Positions 27,289-38,377 of a stretch of 38,934 nucleotides of DNA are shown piece after piece. The translations under genes were made by a program, and so were the position numbers. The notes under the pieces were generated by a model, which had not been told where the DNA came from, did not search any database, and worked only from the letters and a program-made list of their open reading frames with translations. The stretch comes from a virus. The DNA lies in IMG/VR virus record IMGVR_UViG_3300046361_000130, positions 1 through 38,934 of that record; one strand, 5' to 3'. Positions within the stretch are counted from its first letter, which is position 1, and every line of letters starts with the position of its first letter.

Positions 27289-27588
27289 TTAAGTGAATTC
27301 ATATCTTTCATCATTTTCAACTATAGTAGTTTTAAATGGGAAGTTTTCTTTTGGTATTAGTTGTATTACTTGAATTAAGTATTTAGATCCTGTGAAAATT
27401 ACGTGATTAACATCACCTTTTTTAATTTGAATGTAAAGACATTGACCATCAAATTTTGATTCTTTAATTTCAAAATCAATGACTACAATTTCAGCATTTA
27501 GTATCTTTTTTACTTTTATCTTTTCACCAGTGAAGGCTTTTATTTCTGCCTTTATTCCAAAATCTTTGAAGCTTTTAATTTGTGTCAT
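27289..27588 (-). CDS. DGR-associated conserved protein, possible nucleic-acid-binding
   Basis: This 99-aa beta-rich protein starts inside the end of the RT gene (14-bp overlap). Landmarks are the start (TQIKSFKDFGIKAEIKAFTG), IVVIDFEIKESKF (about 34-46), CLYIQIKKGDVNHVIFTGSK (about 50-69) and the end, FPFKTTIVENDERYEF. I recall close relatives next to DGR reverse transcriptases in other Bacteroidota phages. The compact barrel-like strands suggest an OB-fold or ssDNA-binding protein, but this is not shown. No classical Avd protein is visible in this DGR, so this protein is a candidate replacement partner. Confidence 0.65.
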   Translation of the reverse strand: MTQIKSFKDFGIKAEIKAFTGEKIKVKKILNAEIVVIDFEIKESKFDGQCLYIQIKKGDVNHVIFTGSKYLIQVIQLIPKENFPFKTTIVENDERYEFT

Positions 27589-28537
27589 TTGGTAGTAATT
27601 TTTTTAATAAGTGTTTTGAATTGCAGTGCGAAGTCCAACCTTTATAAGCGGCAATGGTAGCACTATTTTTGTTTTTTGATATTGCCTTTGCAAATCTTTT
27701 TTTAATTGATTTACGCAATAGTGTGTGCGTGTGATAAAACTTGTAACCAACAAAATCAATTCCTCGAGCTTCAACTGGAAACACTTGATAGTTTCCTTTT
27801 ACATCTAAGTCTAAATTAGTCTTTAAATAGTGTTTAATTTCAAATAAAAGCTCATGTAAATGTGGTTTGTTGTTTGATAAAATTACAATGTCATCAGCAT
27901 ATCTGAAGTAATATTTTACTTTCTTATTTTCCTTGATCCAATGGTCAAAATAAGTAAGATAAAAATTAGCAAAATATTGACTCAGATAGTTTCCAATAGG
28001 TAAACCATCAGCACTATCAATAATTTCATCAAGTAACCAAAGTAAATCCTGGTCTTTGAATTTACGTCTTAATAATTGCTTTAAAATATCATGGTTAACT
28101 GATGGATAGAACTTTTTAATATCAAGCTTGAGACAGTATCTTGTATTTGTTTCGTCTTTCAATGCTTTTTTTACAGCTCGCACAGCTCCATGTATTCCTT
28201 TACCTTTTATACAGCTGTAAGTATCGGCTGTAAATAGATTATTAAATATTGGTTCTAGAATATTCATAACTGCATGATGTGTAATTCTATCTGGAAAGTA
28301 TGGAAGTTTAAATACTAATCTTTCTTTTGGTTCGTAAACTTTAAAAGTTGTATATTCTGATGTTTTATAAGTTTTAGAACTCAGTAATTCATTTAAGATT
28401 TGAATGTTTTTATCCTGGTTCTTTTTGTGAAGTTTAACTCCATATTGATGCCCTTTGCCTTTTTGGGCGTGGGCATCAGCTAAATGGAGATTGTCAATTG
28501 AAATTATTTGACTATAGAGGTTTGTTATTCTTTTCAT
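27575..28537 (-). CDS. Diversity-generating retroelement reverse transcriptase
   Basis: This 320-aa RT makes cDNA from the template-repeat RNA with errors at adenines. Catalytic residues are LKLDIKKFYPSV at 136-147 (Asp139) and FRYADDIVIL at 211-220 (Asp215, Asp216). GLPIGNYLSQ at 178-187 is the GNxxSQ-type signature of DGR enzymes. KGNYQVFPVEARGIDFVGY (247-265) and HTLLRKSIKKRF (271-282) are the thumb-side blocks. The length is normal for DGR RTs, with no maturase or nuclease domain. It lies about 100 bp downstream of the template repeat and overlaps the accessory gene that follows. Confidence 0.93.
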   Translation of the reverse strand: MKRITNLYSQIISIDNLHLADAHAQKGKGHQYGVKLHKKNQDKNIQILNELLSSKTYKTSEYTTFKVYEPKERLVFKLPYFPDRITHHAVMNILEPIFNNLFTADTYSCIKGKGIHGAVRAVKKALKDETNTRYCLKLDIKKFYPSVNHDILKQLLRRKFKDQDLLWLLDEIIDSADGLPIGNYLSQYFANFYLTYFDHWIKENKKVKYYFRYADDIVILSNNKPHLHELLFEIKHYLKTNLDLDVKGNYQVFPVEARGIDFVGYKFYHTHTLLRKSIKKRFAKAISKNKNSATIAAYKGWTSHCNSKHLLKKLLPNDTN

Positions 28538-28637: not shown

Positions 28638-28717
28638 CATAGGTGAGAGCTGACATTCGAATTCGTGTTCCAATTATCGTAGTCGTTGTACGAGAACCTG
28701 ACGCCTGAAGGAGAACT
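28638..28717 (-). repeat. DGR template repeat (TR)
   Basis: This 80-base stretch matches the variable repeat in the target gene (28829-28908) at a constant offset of 191. All 15 differences are at positions where the minus-strand template has A: A to G 11 times, A to T three times, A to C once. Six template As are unchanged and no other base differs. It reads in frame as SPSGVRFSYNDYDNWNTNSN followed by VSSHL, with AAC/AAT codons placed to vary the protein, as in other DGRs. Confidence 0.95.
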
Positions 28718-28746
28718 ACAACAATAACATCATACAACCTTTAATT

Positions 28747-29214
28747 TTATGCGCTCAATACAAAGTAATCTTTGTAAAGCTCTTCAAATTGAGTTCCTGC
28801 ATGTTTTGCAAGCTCAACCGTTTTAAAGCAAAGGCGAGAGCCGACATCCGAAGCCGCGCACCAATAACCGCAGTCGTTGTACGAGAACCCGACGCCCGAA
28901 GGAGAACCCATCTCAAACCATGGATAGTATTTTCTTTCAGAACTATTTGTCCAGTCTGGAATCCATTGTTCATTATAGGCTTTTGAAATTAGTTTAATTT
29001 TACGATAGGCAACTTCATCTGATGATAAGCCTTCTAAATCTTTTAGAAAATTTAAGTGATTTATTCCAAGCTCTTTTAAGACATCTTCAAATGTTTTAAT
29101 TCGCTCAATAACACTTTTTGGTTCGTCTTCAAATACGACTGTTCCTTTTGATTCATCGAAGTTTATTACTTTACCTTCTGGTGCAGTAATAGTGATTGTT
29201 TTTGTTTTTTGCAT
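28747..29214 (-). CDS. DGR variable (target) protein with C-type-lectin-like domain
   Basis: This 155-aa protein has an N-terminal region (about 1-60) that is beta then helix (TITAPEGKVINFDESKGTVVF, then SVIERIKTFEDVLKELGI). The rest is a C-type-lectin-like fold of the DGR target kind: KYYPWFEMGSPSG (95-107), then the variable stretch FSYNDCGYWCAASD (110-123) and DVGSRLCFKTVELAKHAG (123-140). Residues 103-129 are encoded by the variable repeat. The invariant part after it (about 26 residues) fixes the cDNA at the 3' side. The family is common in Bacteroidota phages. It lies in the early unit, far from tail genes, so whether it is on the virion or made in the lysogen is open. Confidence 0.9.
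   Translation of the reverse strand: MQKTKTITITAPEGKVINFDESKGTVVFEDEPKSVIERIKTFEDVLKELGINHLNFLKDLEGLSSDEVAYRKIKLISKAYNEQWIPDWTNSSERKYYPWFEMGSPSGVGFSYNDCGYWCAASDVGSRLCFKTVELAKHAGTQFEELYKDYFVLSA
28829..28908 (-). repeat. DGR variable repeat (VR)
   Basis: This is the copy of the template repeat inside the target gene, covering codons 103-129. Compared with the template, Arg, Tyr, Asp, Asn, Thr, Ser and His codons have changed to Gly, Cys, Tyr, Ala, Asp or Arg by adenine substitution. Two changes are silent. The strong bias to A-to-G suggests this copy has been mutagenised at least once. Confidence 0.95.
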
Positions 29215-29533: not shown

Positions 29534-29797
29534 TTATTTTTTTTTCTTAAATCCTGCTCGTTGTTTCTTGTGCATTTTTGCCAAATACACATCGCGTGAA
29601 TCTTTATAAAATAGTTTTGATTTTCTATTGGTAACTACTTTTTTATTTATTGAATAGATGTGATAAAAGCCACATATATCGCACTTGTAAAAACTTTGTG
29701 AAGAGTCTTTATTGGTAACTGATATAAGATACTCAGCTGATATCACACTATGTTTTTCTTTGCTGTCGCAAACCTGTTCTGCTGTTAACTTAGCCAT
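29534..29797 (-). CDS. Small Cys-pair protein
   Basis: This 87-aa protein has YKCDICGFYHIYS near residues 37-49, with a Cys-x2-Cys pair and a nearby His. Such a pair can bind zinc with help from His46 and an N-terminal Cys10. The C-terminus is strongly basic (KMHKKQRAGFKKKK), which suggests nucleic-acid binding. It overlaps the previous gene by 8 bp. Similar small zinc-ribbon proteins are frequent in Bacteroidota phage early regions. Confidence 0.65.
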   Translation of the reverse strand: MAKLTAEQVCDSKEKHSVISAEYLISVTNKDSSQSFYKCDICGFYHIYSINKKVVTNRKSKLFYKDSRDVYLAKMHKKQRAGFKKKK

Positions 29798-30323
29798 GGC
29801 CGCTTACTTTATGAGTTAATTTACTAGCTAATTCATTTAGTACAGGATTGAAGACTTTGCCAATCTTATTGTCTGTTGGATATTCGTTATCGTAATATTG
29901 ACCATTTATGTAGGTTGCAAGATGCGCCTTTGCTACTTTGCTTTGGCGTAAGTAATTTTTATAGCGCGGTATTGAAGTGAAAATCTTAATGATCGTCTCT
30001 TCTTTGCAACGTTTAAAAGCTTTCTCAGCGTGAAATTTTGCAATTTTATGATCGTACAAGTTCCAGAGCGCATCAAAGGATAAATCGGCTGGTGATACTT
30101 CAACTGTAAAAACCTTTGTGTATTTTTCTTGTTTCATCCATACTGCTTTTATGATTGCTTCAGTTGCAGGAAAACGATTAGAAAATAGCCATTGTATCTG
30201 TTCTGCATTTAGTTCGCCTTCTTGAATTTCAAACACTCTTAAATTGCCGTTTAAATCATATTTAAACAGGAATATCAAACCAATTTCTTTTCCTTTAGCG
30301 CGGTAAGTTGTTAGTTGTTCCAT
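29790..30323 (-). CDS. Replication-protein-like helical protein
   Basis: This 177-aa protein has an N-terminal alpha/beta part (about 1-80). Residues about 83-145 carry the pattern F-D-x-LW-LY-K-x-AEKAFKRC, then RYKNYLRQS and ATYINGQYYDNEYP. This segment recalls the small C-terminal domain of phage replication-initiation/helicase-loader proteins (FW-LY-K then Y, then ATYLN-W). The phage replicates by transposition, so this may recruit host replisome parts after strand transfer, as PriA/DnaT-type loading does for Mu. This role is inferred. It overlaps the next gene by 8 bp. Confidence 0.6.
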   Translation of the reverse strand: MEQLTTYRAKGKEIGLIFLFKYDLNGNLRVFEIQEGELNAEQIQWLFSNRFPATEAIIKAVWMKQEKYTKVFTVEVSPADLSFDALWNLYDHKIAKFHAEKAFKRCKEETIIKIFTSIPRYKNYLRQSKVAKAHLATYINGQYYDNEYPTDNKIGKVFNPVLNELASKLTHKVSGHG

Positions 30324-34490: not shown

Positions 34491-35330
34491 TTACTCTTTT
34501 ACATTGTTTAAAAAATACTTTTGAACGTCCTTTTTTACTCTTCGCATATCGTCTTCACAATTCTCATATATTCTTAGAATCTCGTCATTGTCATCGATGC
34601 CATTTGCTTTGCATATTTGAGCGATATCATCTTTAGTAGCTGCTTTAAGTTTTAACCATTTTCGACCAATACGTGACCAACATTCGTGATAACCGCTTCT
34701 GTCATTATTAACACCTCTTTTGAAGCGTTTTTCTAGTGCAGGAGTTCCAGATAGTAAAAAACCACAGTTAGGTAAGTTGTTGAAAAAATCAATGAACAAA
34801 TCAAGCGATGCGTCTTTCAATTTATCTGTTTGATCAATAATCATGAAAGGAGCTTTTTTGGAGGATAAGTAATCAATAACTCTTTCGATTAAGTCTTCTG
34901 TAGTTCCAAAATCATCAAGTCCACAAGCAACGTTTAATGCTTTTGCAAAAGATTTTTGTTTCCAGAATGTCATGCACTCTATATAAATTACATTTTGGTT
35001 CTGCTTAGCGAAATATTTATAAACTTCGCTTTTACCCGCACCTGCTTTGTCAGAAACTCCAAAGGATAAACTTTGCTTTTGTGCTTGTTCAATGTGTTTT
35101 AAAATGTACTTGAAGTTAGCCGTTGGTGCTGTATTCCAGTTTAACTCTATGCGCAATTTTACTTGTACTTTTTGCCACATTTCGTCTGCAATTAACTCCC
35201 ATTTGTTGTTTATCATTTGGCTAATAGTAGCCGATGAAACACCTGCACGAATGGCTACTTTATTAGCTGAAGTAAGCGATATTAAGTACTTTACTTCATT
35301 TGTTATTTGTTGTTTTTGAGTTGTTGTCAT
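34491..35330 (-). CDS. MuB-like transposition ATPase
   Basis: This 279-aa protein has an N-terminal helix-turn-helix (residues about 20-44, SANKVAIRAGVSSATISQMI), as in MuB. An AAA ATPase core follows: Walker A GVSDKAGAGKSEVY (91-104), Walker B APFMIID (160-166), then a sensor-like GFLLSGTPALEKRF (190-203). MuB binds target DNA with ATP, captures it for the transposase and gives target immunity. It overlaps nothing but follows the transposase by about 23 bp, the Mu A-B order. The length is close to MuB (312 aa). Confidence 0.88.
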   Translation of the reverse strand: MTTTQKQQITNEVKYLISLTSANKVAIRAGVSSATISQMINNKWELIADEMWQKVQVKLRIELNWNTAPTANFKYILKHIEQAQKQSLSFGVSDKAGAGKSEVYKYFAKQNQNVIYIECMTFWKQKSFAKALNVACGLDDFGTTEDLIERVIDYLSSKKAPFMIIDQTDKLKDASLDLFIDFFNNLPNCGFLLSGTPALEKRFKRGVNNDRSGYHECWSRIGRKWLKLKAATKDDIAQICKANGIDDNDEILRIYENCEDDMRRVKKDVQKYFLNNVKE

Positions 35331-35353: not shown

Positions 35354-37315
35354 TTAAAAATCGTATTCTTGAGATTCTAATTTTAAGCGCTCTTCTTTGG
35401 TTAGTGAGCGTTGCATTTTTATTTCAAGATCCTGTGTTTCCATTTCTCGCTGTGGTGTTATTCCTGTGCGTTGCATTAGTTCGGCGATCATTTGTTGGTC
35501 ACGTGAGAATTCTGCATCTTTCACGGCGTAATCTTTAGCCCATTGTGCTTTGTCACCTTCTTTCATTAACACCGGAACGTCTTGGTGTTTACGTTTTGGT
35601 TCTGCATTAGCCACGTGAACAATATTGTCGCTGTTATCTTTCATGCATAGCTGAACATAGCCGTCTAAAAATTCAGGATCATAGCGTACTATGAATTTGT
35701 TACCAATGTGTTTTCTTCTGAATTCTAAATCAATGTTTCCATTAGCGTCATAAACTTCAAATTGATAATCGTCGTTACCAACTGTCATATTTAATCCGTG
35801 TGCTTTGTAGGTAATAGGTTTTGTTTCATTAATCCACATTTTATCCATTATTTCCCAAATTGAAAGCTCTTCGCGCATTGGCATTTCGTGTTGGTAAACT
35901 TCATTTCTTGAAAGTCCAAATTTTGAATGCTTACCATCGTTCCATTTTTTAACCGCTAGTCGCCAAGCTGAGTTTAGTTGTGTAACCGTTAAAAGATTGT
36001 CTTTGTTTTCGATTATAAAATCTTCATTCATTCTGTTGTCATCACGTCTAACTTTTACGCTTTGACCATCAGAAAACCAAAACTTATTGATTACTTGCTG
36101 TTGTAGATTTTTAAATAGTAGTTCTGCAGGTCCGTGAGTTCTTTTTGCTCTGTTTGGGTGATGCGTTCCACCATCTGTTGCAACAATAGAACTGTACAAT
36201 TCTTGCATACGTGCCATCTTGTGACCTCCTTGATTATCATAAGTCAAGTAATAAGGTTTGCATCCGGCTTCATTAACTGCCATTTTGATAGCTTTGAAGT
36301 GTTCTATATGGTTTTCTGTAAAACCAAAGGACCATCCAAGTATTTTTTCGCTGTAAACATCAAACATGATGTCTATTTTCAAACTCGATGACATTTTACG
36401 AGTGCTTTCGTCATCAAAATGGATCCAGTCAAGTTTTGAACCATCAATAGCCCAATAGCAGTTTGGAAACCAATCGTCTTTTTGACGTGTAAGCGTGTAA
36501 CCAAACTTACGGTTCCAAGATTCCTTACCATGACGTGCAAGTGTCCAAATTCTTTCGTTTTCTGGTTTATAAAAAAAATTATAAACAGCAGCTTCAGTAA
36601 GTGTGTCCCAACCTTTCTCTTCGCGAATTTCGTTGTAACGAAACAACACCATTGGAATAGATAATTTTATAGGAAGACAATATTGAGCTAATAAGAAGTC
36701 TGCGATATCGCCTTTAATTTTTGTTGCATTAGATGTACCTTCTGATTTGTGGATAAAAATTTGGTAACCCTCTTTCAAGTAGGCATTATATTTACGTTGC
36801 AAAATTCTGGCATTGCCCGGAAGTGAATGCACCCATTTGTTATTGTCAATCGCATTAACTGCATCACTAATGTTTTGCCACACGTTGGTTTGTTTGCGTC
36901 CAAATATTTTAGTAAGAGCTGAACGATCTTTAAGTACTATTTGAATAGCATTTAAAACCATAGCGTTGGTTGCTTTCTCACGTTGTTGATCTTCACTCAA
37001 TGGTTTGCCATCTGGTTTGCGATGACTAGAGAAAAAAGAAATCGCTTCTTTATCTGGAAAGATGAAATTTTCAAGCTGATTACGAACAATGGTTTCTTTT
37101 GGTGCGCCAAGTTCTGCGATGCATCTATCTTTTATATGCTGAGGCAAATCGTAAAAAGATACATAAGGTTCATTACCCGGACCTCTTCCTTCTTTTGTGC
37201 GTATCAATTTACCGCGTTTGCACATTTGCTTATAATTATCATAAGAAGTGCAATTCCAAACATCGTAAATGAGTTTGGCAGGGATTGATAATATGTTATT
37301 TTGATATTGATACAT
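35354..37315 (-). CDS. DDE transposase, MuA-like
   Basis: This 653-aa protein cuts and joins phage ends for integration and replicative transposition. The N-terminal part (about 1-190) has DNA-binding helices. The RNase H-like core carries WAIDGSKLDW (288-297, Asp291), LTYDNQGGHK (357-366, Asp360) and HGPAELLFKNLQQQ (394-407, Glu398), the DDE triad. An all-beta domain follows and then a C-terminal basic coiled region (about 600-653) that would contact MuB and ClpX in Mu. Its length is almost identical to MuA (663 aa). It follows the Ner-like gene by 10 bp. Confidence 0.93.
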   Translation of the reverse strand: MYQYQNNILSIPAKLIYDVWNCTSYDNYKQMCKRGKLIRTKEGRGPGNEPYVSFYDLPQHIKDRCIAELGAPKETIVRNQLENFIFPDKEAISFFSSHRKPDGKPLSEDQQREKATNAMVLNAIQIVLKDRSALTKIFGRKQTNVWQNISDAVNAIDNNKWVHSLPGNARILQRKYNAYLKEGYQIFIHKSEGTSNATKIKGDIADFLLAQYCLPIKLSIPMVLFRYNEIREEKGWDTLTEAAVYNFFYKPENERIWTLARHGKESWNRKFGYTLTRQKDDWFPNCYWAIDGSKLDWIHFDDESTRKMSSSLKIDIMFDVYSEKILGWSFGFTENHIEHFKAIKMAVNEAGCKPYYLTYDNQGGHKMARMQELYSSIVATDGGTHHPNRAKRTHGPAELLFKNLQQQVINKFWFSDGQSVKVRRDDNRMNEDFIIENKDNLLTVTQLNSAWRLAVKKWNDGKHSKFGLSRNEVYQHEMPMREELSIWEIMDKMWINETKPITYKAHGLNMTVGNDDYQFEVYDANGNIDLEFRRKHIGNKFIVRYDPEFLDGYVQLCMKDNSDNIVHVANAEPKRKHQDVPVLMKEGDKAQWAKDYAVKDAEFSRDQQMIAELMQRTGITPQREMETQDLEIKMQRSLTKEERLKLESQEYDF

Positions 37316-37325
37316 AGTTCAAAAA

Positions 37326-37541
37326 TTATTGATCTTTGTTTTGTAAATTTTCAATCACGTTTTCACGAGCTTCAATTATTTTGCTCATTGCCTCAATAGC
37401 TTCTGGCTTTTCTCTATCAAATCTTTTACGAGCTGCATCCGGATTACACTTTAATGCTTTACCTAAAGTGGTCCAATCACCAACTTGCATTTTTTCTCTG
37501 ATTTCTTCGATTGTCAATGGTTTATTTTCGGCGTTTGTCAT
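37326..37541 (-). CDS. Ner-like early regulator
   Basis: This 71-aa first gene of the early operon begins about 33 bases after the predicted early transcription start. The central part (about 16-50, KMQVGDWTTLGKALKCNPDAARKRF) looks like a helix-turn-helix, followed by a charged helix. In Mu the equivalent gene ner turns down early transcription. The operators lie just upstream of it. Role by position and fold. Confidence 0.75.
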   Translation of the reverse strand: MTNAENKPLTIEEIREKMQVGDWTTLGKALKCNPDAARKRFDREKPEAIEAMSKIIEARENVIENLQNKDQ

Positions 37542-37566
37542 TTTTATTTATTTTATTATACCTTTG
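37534..37566 (+). promoter_or_regulatory. Promoter for the repressor gene
   Basis: TTTG (37534-37537), 21 bp, then TACCTTTG (37559-37566) matches the Bacteroidota promoter. The predicted start is near 37573, with a leader of about 95 bases. It faces the early promoter head-on, and both start points nearly coincide. Confidence 0.7.
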
Positions 37567-37580
37567 TCCTGTTGTACGTA

Positions 37581-37611
37581 CAAATATATACGCATTATTT
37601 CGTATTACAAA
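37581..37611 (-). promoter_or_regulatory. Early promoter for the transposase operon
   Basis: On the minus strand, TTTG (37611-37608), 19 bp, then TATATTTG (37588-37581) is an exact consensus. The start is near 37574, 33 bases before the Ner-like gene. Operator 1 lies inside the spacer and operator 2 just upstream, so a bound repressor would block polymerase. Confidence 0.8.
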
Positions 37612-37634
37612 ATATTTCACGCAATATTTCGTGA
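37589..37634. promoter_or_regulatory. Two repressor operators
   Basis: Operator 1 is TACG-8 bases-CGTA at 37589-37604. Operator 2 is TCACG-8 bases-CGTGA at 37617-37634. Their 14-bp cores are nearly identical (ACGCATTATTTCGT and ACGCAATATTTCGT), with centres 29 bp apart. Both are palindromes, as expected for a dimeric HTH repressor. A further TGTACGTACA palindrome occurs nearby at 37573-37582. Confidence 0.7.
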
Positions 37635-37666
37635 TTTATTTCAACATATTTTATAATATATTGATT

Positions 37667-38377
37667 ATGAACAATTTGGAGTTGCTAAAAATTAGAACAA
37701 AACTAGGAAAAACACAGGAAGAGTTTGCTCTTTTGGCTGGTGTTAGTCCACGTACTGTTCAAAATTGGGAGGCAGGAAAAGCAATTCCGAAGTCAAAACA
37801 CGCATTTTTGCGTGGTCTTTTAGAAAAAAATAATACTGAATATAGTAGTAATAATTCTACAACATTTAACGTTATAAATGAACCATCAGAAATTTACCAC
37901 AATACAAATGGTAATAAATTCATTGAACTAAAAAACGGTAAATTCAAAATTATTGTGAAAAAAGTACCTGTAAAAGCTTTCGGATCCTATTTGTCAGATT
38001 TTCAGAATGTAGAATTCATTGAAGATTTGGAAGAGGTTTCATTTACAGTTGATCACATCGGAAAAGGAAAATACATGTGCTTTGAGGTTGAAGGTGATTC
38101 TATGAATGGTGGAAACTTAAATGATAGTCCCGATGGTGCAGAACTTTTATGTCGTGAATTAGGAAAGCAGCACTGGAAAGATGGTTTTAGAGATTCTCTT
38201 TATGGTTGGGTAATAGTACACAAACAAACGGTCCTTTTTAAAGATATAATTTCTATGAATTTTGAAACTGGTGACATTATTTGCCATTCAAGAAGTGGAC
38301 TTCCTAATCATTCTGACTTTACAATAAACTTAAACGATGTTCACCAGATCCTCAAGGTAATTAAGAGAACATTTTAA
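37667..38377 (+). CDS. Phage repressor, XRE helix-turn-helix with S24 peptidase domain
   Basis: This 236-aa protein starts at the ATG at 37667; earlier in-frame codons lie inside the operator region. Residues about 5-40 (RTKLGKTQEEFALLAGVSPRT, then VQNWEAGKAIP) are a typical XRE HTH. The C-terminal part has the S24 fold: GDSM at 143-146 with Ser145, and a Lys candidate at 186 or 192 in VIVHKQTVLFKD. At the expected self-cleavage site the sequence is VKAFGSYL, not the usual Ala-Gly. Self-cleavage and SOS induction may therefore be altered. It keeps the prophage silent through the operators next to its own gene. Confidence 0.85.
   Translation: MNNLELLKIRTKLGKTQEEFALLAGVSPRTVQNWEAGKAIPKSKHAFLRGLLEKNNTEYSSNNSTTFNVINEPSEIYHNTNGNKFIELKNGKFKIIVKKVPVKAFGSYLSDFQNVEFIEDLEEVSFTVDHIGKGKYMCFEVEGDSMNGGNLNDSPDGAELLCRELGKQHWKDGFRDSLYGWVIVHKQTVLFKDIISMNFETGDIICHSRSGLPNHSDFTINLNDVHQILKVIKRTF

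Follow-up and report, generated by a model that had tools for sequence, protein, structure and literature searches.

Almost every account of phage diversity-generating retroelements (DGRs) treats them as switches of tropism that act on tail proteins. The virus sequence analyzed here – 38,934 nucleotides, positions 1 to 38,934 of IMG/VR record IMGVR_UViG_3300046361_000130, hereafter 'the window' – presents what is almost certainly a DGR, with its target gene among the early genes of a transposable phage. It raises the question of what kind of protein such an element diversifies, and what the phage would gain from it.

A DGR at the end of the early unit of a Mu-like phage

The DGR locus comprises the following features:

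28747..29214, minus strand: predicted DGR target, 155 amino acids, phrog_11581 family (phrog_11581 E 5.7e-27)
28829..28908, minus strand: variable repeat (VR), within the target gene
28638..28717, minus strand: template repeat (TR), intergenic, between target and reverse transcriptase
27575..28537, minus strand: DGR reverse transcriptase (RT), 320 amino acids (RVT_1 E 3.9e-21; phrog_1423 E 3.4e-122; 8ub7 E 8.5e-44)
27289..27588, minus strand: probable small RT-partner protein, 99 amino acids, overlapping the RT stop by 14 nt; OB-fold-like model

The two repeats align over 80 nt, ungapped and at a constant offset of 191, exactly as the preliminary description of this locus had recorded. Fifteen of the 21 template adenines are changed in the VR (11 A>G, 3 A>T, 1 A>C) and none of the 59 other bases; the chance of 15 randomly placed differences all landing on adenine is 8e-12. 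The next-best placement of the TR in the window has 29 non-adenine mismatches, with nothing nearer. The VR lies inside a coding target gene, the TR is non-coding and the RT is adjacent, in the canonical order claimed earlier: target (ORF 29214..28747), TR, RT (ORF 28537..27575). The best PDB match of the RT is the 328-amino acid reverse transcriptase of 8ub7, which we take to be the BPP-1 enzyme. Its catalytic motifs are intact (IGNYLSQ at 181, YADD at 213), the first being the window's form of the DGR-clade motif [ILV]GxxxSQ that replaces QGxxxSP.

Other genes place this cassette within the phage:

35354..37315, minus strand: MuA-like transposase (phrog_310 E 1.6e-53)
34491..35330, minus strand: MuB-like transposition protein (phrog_296 E 4.7e-51)
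29790..30323, minus strand: replication-initiation-like early gene, upstream of the target (phrog_270 E 1.1e-7; phrog_9474 E 4.5e-7)
37511..38377, plus strand: repressor, divergent from the early strand (phrog_4 E 9.2e-10)

Homologues of both MuA and MuB identify the window as a transposable, Mu-like phage, as first proposed, and the target is encoded on the early strand, where the early unit ends. The Mu-like relatives have a similar layout: their cassette follows MuA, MuB, an ATPase and DUF3164 on one strand, and the portal/terminase genes downstream are convergent with it.

With the BPP-1 DGR (brt/avd/mtd) the window shares a related RT, adenine-only transfer from TR to VR and the order target-TR-RT. 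It is closer in setting to the Bacteroides hankyphage p00, also a transposable Bacteroidota phage with a DGR and a related RT (32% identity to the window RT). The hankyphage target is the C-terminus of a ~2,240-amino acid ORF of the tail module that closes the late unit, whereas that of the window is a 155-amino acid protein at the end of the early unit; the large tail-module target with a C-terminal VR that marks the Hankyvirus type is thus absent here. The DGRs of crAss-like phages (e.g., cr55_1, LMMB) have RTs 49-60% identical to that of the window, and their target, an annotated tail protein of 572 amino acids with a C-terminal VR, is also unlike the window's.

A cassette type widespread among Bacteroidota

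Close relatives of the RT are present in hundreds of IMG/VR contigs, and prophages with a related RT occur in Flavobacterium, Elizabethkingia, Chryseobacterium, Pedobacter, Chitinophagaceae and others. A script that searches for repeats differing only at the adenines of one copy found TR/VR pairs nearly everywhere. Because it demands adenine-only runs, the identity of relatives' pairs at other bases is partly built in – a demand addressed by controls with other bases and by the comparisons of sister phages described below. Among 127 cassettes with at least 2.5 kb of upstream DNA, adenine-only pairs were found in 124, compared with 10 for guanine-only and none for cytosine-only or thymine-only pairs.

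The cassette is a widespread Bacteroidota type, and its usual targets are small: 114 of the 127 have only small soluble targets of the phrog_11581 family and 13 have tail-type targets. Two small targets in tandem are the rule (93 cassettes), followed by three (16), one (4) and four (1). The window, with one small target, is a rare reduced form. The one-TR, two-target arrangement of its relatives recalls the tentaclin DGRs (PMC10743442); tentaclins are proteins with C-lectin and Ig domains and an N-terminal VR, presumed to be virion-bound (PMC10743442), and we saw no resemblance between them and phrog_11581. Two loci depart from the common layout. In Dyadobacter sp. CY261 (L131, 3961-16236) a single RT is surrounded by four target-like genes scattered across 12 kb, of which one lies ~7 kb past the TR, and Sphingobacterium griseoflavum (L145:7928-8788) has a single 286-amino acid ORF where two targets are expected, which may be an in-frame fusion of both paralogues.

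The single target of the window may have arisen by a deletion through the VRs of two tandem genes. Its head is of the upstream paralogue (A) type in 29 of 30 best matches, and the tail of the protein leans to the downstream paralogue (B), which supplies the top five matches; the DNA of the tail is not decisive, with means of 59% against A and 58% against B. Such a chimera, together with the scarcity of single targets (4 of the 114 small-type cassettes, plus the window, where relatives have two or three), would fit a decaying cassette whose VR is no longer rewritten. We consider decay quite improbable: the RT retains its catalytic motifs, the partner gene is intact and the 59 non-adenine positions of the repeats have not diverged at all, which would be unexpected after long inactivity.

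Activity in relatives of the window phage

The preliminary description had called the element active-looking. We compared relatives that share a template. Prophages of Elizabethkingia miricola and E. occulta have identical TRs and RTs sharing 98.9%; between them the two VRs show 13 and 10 differences, every one at a template adenine and none at another base, while the rest of the cassette differs at 9%. Adenine-only VR differences under an identical TR number 12 between L011 and L013, eight between L007 and L008 and 15 between L149 and L150. The last are two MAG contigs with identical RT and TR whose differences lie in a tail VR, a clean natural pair. Adenine-specific variation with a constant template thus recurs in four pairs of relatives (L103/L105, L011/L013, L007/L008 and L149/L150).

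Since relatives with identical TRs differ in their repeats only at template adenines, the lineage is active. Neither an absence of adenine variation nor differences at other bases, the observations that would have spoken against the original proposal, was seen in related genomes. Exact and adenine-wildcard searches of viral contigs for strains of the window phage that share its TR were negative, so for this phage itself we infer activity from its lineage.

Fixed flanks bound a mutable core

To ask where within the repeat variation falls, we aligned 234 TR/VR pairs on the GSR codon and tallied the outcome at each position; these pairs are not phylogenetically independent, and the set comprises pairs without non-adenine mismatches. 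Two regimes emerged. In a core from about -43 to -3 nt relative to the GSR codon, template adenines become a mixture of A, G, T and C. In the flanks outside it, a template adenine nearly always becomes one and the same base. The window VR divides accordingly:

28886..28908, minus strand: upstream fixed block; AGT>GGT (28908), TCA>TCG (28897, synonymous), AGG>GGG (28890)
28845..28885, minus strand: mutable core, ~41 nt; TR counterpart 28654-28694; 9 of 15 template adenines changed
28829..28844, minus strand: downstream fixed block (IMH/IMH*-like); AGC>GGC (28842), CAC>CGC (28835), CTA>CTT (28831, synonymous)

In relatives that have an adenine at the positions of the upstream block, A>G is seen in 93% (28908), 97% (28897) and 98% (28890), and at positions -55 and -48 a template adenine has become G in 97-98%. 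In the downstream block the glycine codon (28842) has G in 213 of 213 relatives and the arginine codon (28835) in 207 of 207; the counterpart of 28831 is T in 92%. Six of the 15 differences in the window (VR 28908, 28897, 28890, 28842, 28835 and 28831) are therefore fixed in essentially all relatives. The corresponding TR adenines (28717, 28706, 28699, 28651, 28644 and 28640) are absent from the window VR and have almost always one fixed replacement in relatives. An unmutated copy of the template would encode SSH, compared with the invariant GSR.

Two of these fixed changes are synonymous, so selection on the protein does not explain them, and the sites mark sequence outside the replaced tract. 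At TCA>TCG the change was present in 103 of 113 codons compared, with A kept in none; at CTA>CTT it was present in 125 of 129, with A kept in one (~241 codons over both synonymous sites). The six fixed differences are consequently differences between TR and VR blocks and not evidence of mutagenesis in the window phage. Judged from the aligned repeats, only the ~41-nt core of the VR varies, and true variation in the window amounts to 9 of its 15 core adenines.

We know of no described counterpart of the upstream fixed block. The downstream block resembles the IMH of BPP-1, in which a 21-bp part with five fixed mismatches sets the direction of transfer (PMC3240598). Other features differ from BPP-1: the mutable core is only ~41 nt and is bounded upstream as well, and no strong conserved hairpin was seen 3' of the VR. 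Compared with synonymous shuffles, the region following the VR had a mean z of -0.40 over 126 targets and a z of -1.2 in the window, a weak bias only.

A small soluble target without a tail-attachment domain

The profile of phrog_11581, a family of unknown function in PHROG, is matched by 98 of 99 aligned family members. Pfam and NCBIfam hold no family for the target, and PDB sequence and fold searches gave no significant match. Its AF2 model (pLDDT 87 overall) is confident for an N-terminal hairpin with helices and for a helical tail at the C-terminus, while the VR, which separates these parts, is modelled as loops of low confidence (pLDDT 59-72); display of the VR in a lectin-like manner is accordingly putative, the VR being poorly modelled and the fold without a PDB match. 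Unlike the usual C-terminal VR, that of the window is followed by 27 conserved residues, a further difference from BPP-1, as is a target that is no tail fibre. No tail-attachment domain, signal or membrane segment was found in the 155-amino acid protein, and no hydrophobic segment in it or in 115 relatives. The target is very probably a soluble early protein outside the tail, 'early' being a reading of gene order and strand.

The comparison with the hankyphage in the preliminary description had implied a receptor-binding or host-range protein, and this implication is not supported for a soluble protein lacking tail, signal and membrane segments. The corresponding alternative is that the target is a virion-borne receptor binder, decorating tail or capsid as in BPP-1 and the hankyphage, with the DGR tuning host range and the early position incidental. 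Phage DGRs do mostly target tail proteins (PMC8144416), and the GSRLCF that closes the VR motif is shared with the tail-type targets found beside related RTs. Against this stand the small size of the protein, its want of a tail-attachment domain and its usual presence in two or three tandem copies. We regard a virion-borne binder as unlikely, if the most serious of the alternatives; further evidence on it comes from relatives of the target outside this cassette type.

The same family is the distal second target of tail-targeting DGRs

We found members of the same protein family as second, distant targets in gut phages. In the Bacteroides phage BT-TP2 one TR has adenine-only VRs both in a 2,262-amino acid tail-module ORF and in a 183-amino acid phrog_11581-like gene, with 0 of 86 non-adenine mismatches in both. 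The latter is unannotated (L170, PQ571279, 44859-45224, continuing at the record start) and lies behind an HTH gene; the record has a 141-nt terminal repeat, and the gene spans its ends. No homologue of this small target was found in plasmids. In BI-TP1, of the LoVEphage type, a single TR again has two adenine-only VRs: one, with 20 changes, in a tail protein that carries an Mtd-like annotation, the other, with 14 changes and none at other bases, in gp84 (PQ571265; L171:11926-12510), which lies far away in the early region.

The same holds for four Bacteroidales prophages (L143, L149, L151 and L155), in each of which a distal gene matches the genome's own TR over 69-86 nt with differences at adenines only, and this TR also has a separate tail target. 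Here the distal gene is in a recombination/replication operon, with RecT or RecE and a DnaD-like helicase loader as neighbors by profile in those tested. Two further genomes in an even draw of 395 Bacteroidota also have distant small targets, and in G369 the same TR has a separate tail target. Because distal relatives sit in recombination/replication operons, the early location is a property of the family. No second VR was found in the hankyphage.

Dahlman et al. 2025 (PMC12629997) describe a second VR, distant from the RT and near counter-defence genes, in four species of gut prophage; the part of that report considered here names neither the protein family nor the flavobacterial cassettes. 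Whereas in these DGRs (BI-TP1, BT-TP2 and the LoVEphage type) the small, adenine-only diversified target comes in addition to one in the tail, the window lineage has no targets other than small ones, and these adjoin the TR.

The distal genes bear on the virion-borne alternative in both directions. Their VR part matches the tail-protein family phrog_5302, which speaks for it. They also lie in RecET/DnaD-like operons, in phages whose TR already supplies a VR in a tail gene, and this setting – an early DNA-metabolism operon beside a separate tail target – likewise counts against the host-range function implied earlier.

They bear as well on a role in superinfection exclusion or phage competition, in which a prophage protein, intracellular or receptor-masking, would bind components of incoming phages or host receptors through its variable loop. 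A small soluble protein in temperate phages and prophages would suit this role, and the BT-TP2 copy adjoins the repressor region. However, that gene is on the cro-like, early lytic side, and others lie within lytic replication genes, not in a lysogenic operon; there is also no export signal. Exclusion therefore seems improbable to us, more so than a virion-borne binder.

An OB-like protein beside the RT

No Avd-like gene was recognized beside the window RT, another departure from BPP-1; the place is taken by the 99-amino acid protein. Homologues are present at 151 of 167 RT loci, where they usually overlap the RT stop. In the even draw of 395 Bacteroidota genomes, all six matches were beside a DGR RT, one of them in the genome on which the draw was centred; this count used a purpose-made alignment, the PHROG model of the partner being too insensitive.

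Pfam and NCBIfam contain no family for this protein. Its AF2 model (pLDDT 94.6) is OB-fold-like, with the order b-b-b-a-b-b, and its best Foldseek match, a weak one (E 0.04), is the DNA-binding protein PrgE. By hhalign its homologues include the C-terminal extension of the hankyphage RT (98.9%, E 2.1e-17) and the C-terminal domain of the BT-TP2 RT (probability 97.4). That the domain is fused to the RT in the hankyphage and BT-TP2 argues for a joint function. The 99-amino acid protein is probably a partner of the RT, and it is a candidate for a DGR accessory factor that replaces Avd.

In Bacteroidales cassettes another small ORF separates the RT from the OB-like gene; BT-TP2 and hankyphage relatives carry it with the annotation DUF4376. 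Instances are L138:9983-10348, L139:9986-10345, L151:10007-10390 and, in the hankyphage, L193:40044-40529; the window has none. The hankyphage small ORF adjoining the RT was once likened to Avd (PMC6199706).

Proposed mechanism and significance

In the mechanism we propose, the RT, aided by the adjacent OB-like protein, would make a cDNA of the TR transcript in which the errors fall on adenines, and this cDNA would replace the ~41-nt core of the VR. The fixed adenine differences flanking the core, outside the replaced tract, would keep donor and recipient distinct. The product would be a small soluble protein with a conserved helical scaffold and ~11 variable codons between strands that end in GSRLCF, and it is encoded with the early transposition and replication genes, not with the tail genes. 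Taken as a whole, we lean towards a Bacteroidota-specific DGR that diversifies an early, small, soluble binder in a transposable phage. The preliminary description anticipated part of this picture, and overlooked the tandem targets of relatives, the RT-partner protein and the fixed flanking adenines.

What the binder does is a more tentative matter. We infer a cytosolic site of action and a ligand there: the target may bind variable host factors inside the cell early in infection, with the DGR keeping it adaptable, and may serve counter-defence or takeover of the host. The context that bears on counter-defence is the early-operon setting, nearby methyltransferases and the counter-defence genes that Dahlman et al. 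note near distal VRs. At a shade greater reserve, the proposal can be widened: Bacteroidota phages might use DGRs beyond tropism, with phrog_11581 proteins as 'affinity-maturing' early intracellular proteins that bind variable host defence or replication factors, occurring as tandem pairs or as the distal partner of a tail target, with a 41-nt core bounded by fixed adenines and an RT whose OB-fold partner is split or fused.

What is new, within a known kind of system, is the class of target, together with its connection to distal second VRs, the bounding of the mutable core and the RT partner. In a large and consistent set of cassettes the diversified protein is small and soluble and its gene stands with transposition or replication genes; in gut phages with tail-targeting DGRs, members of the same phrog_11581 family are a hidden second target. 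Two features offer handles on retrohoming without Avd: the RT partner, which hankyphages have as part of the RT itself, and the fixed adenines on either side of the core. If the target does act inside the cell, phages would be aiming targeted hypermutation at intracellular host factors.
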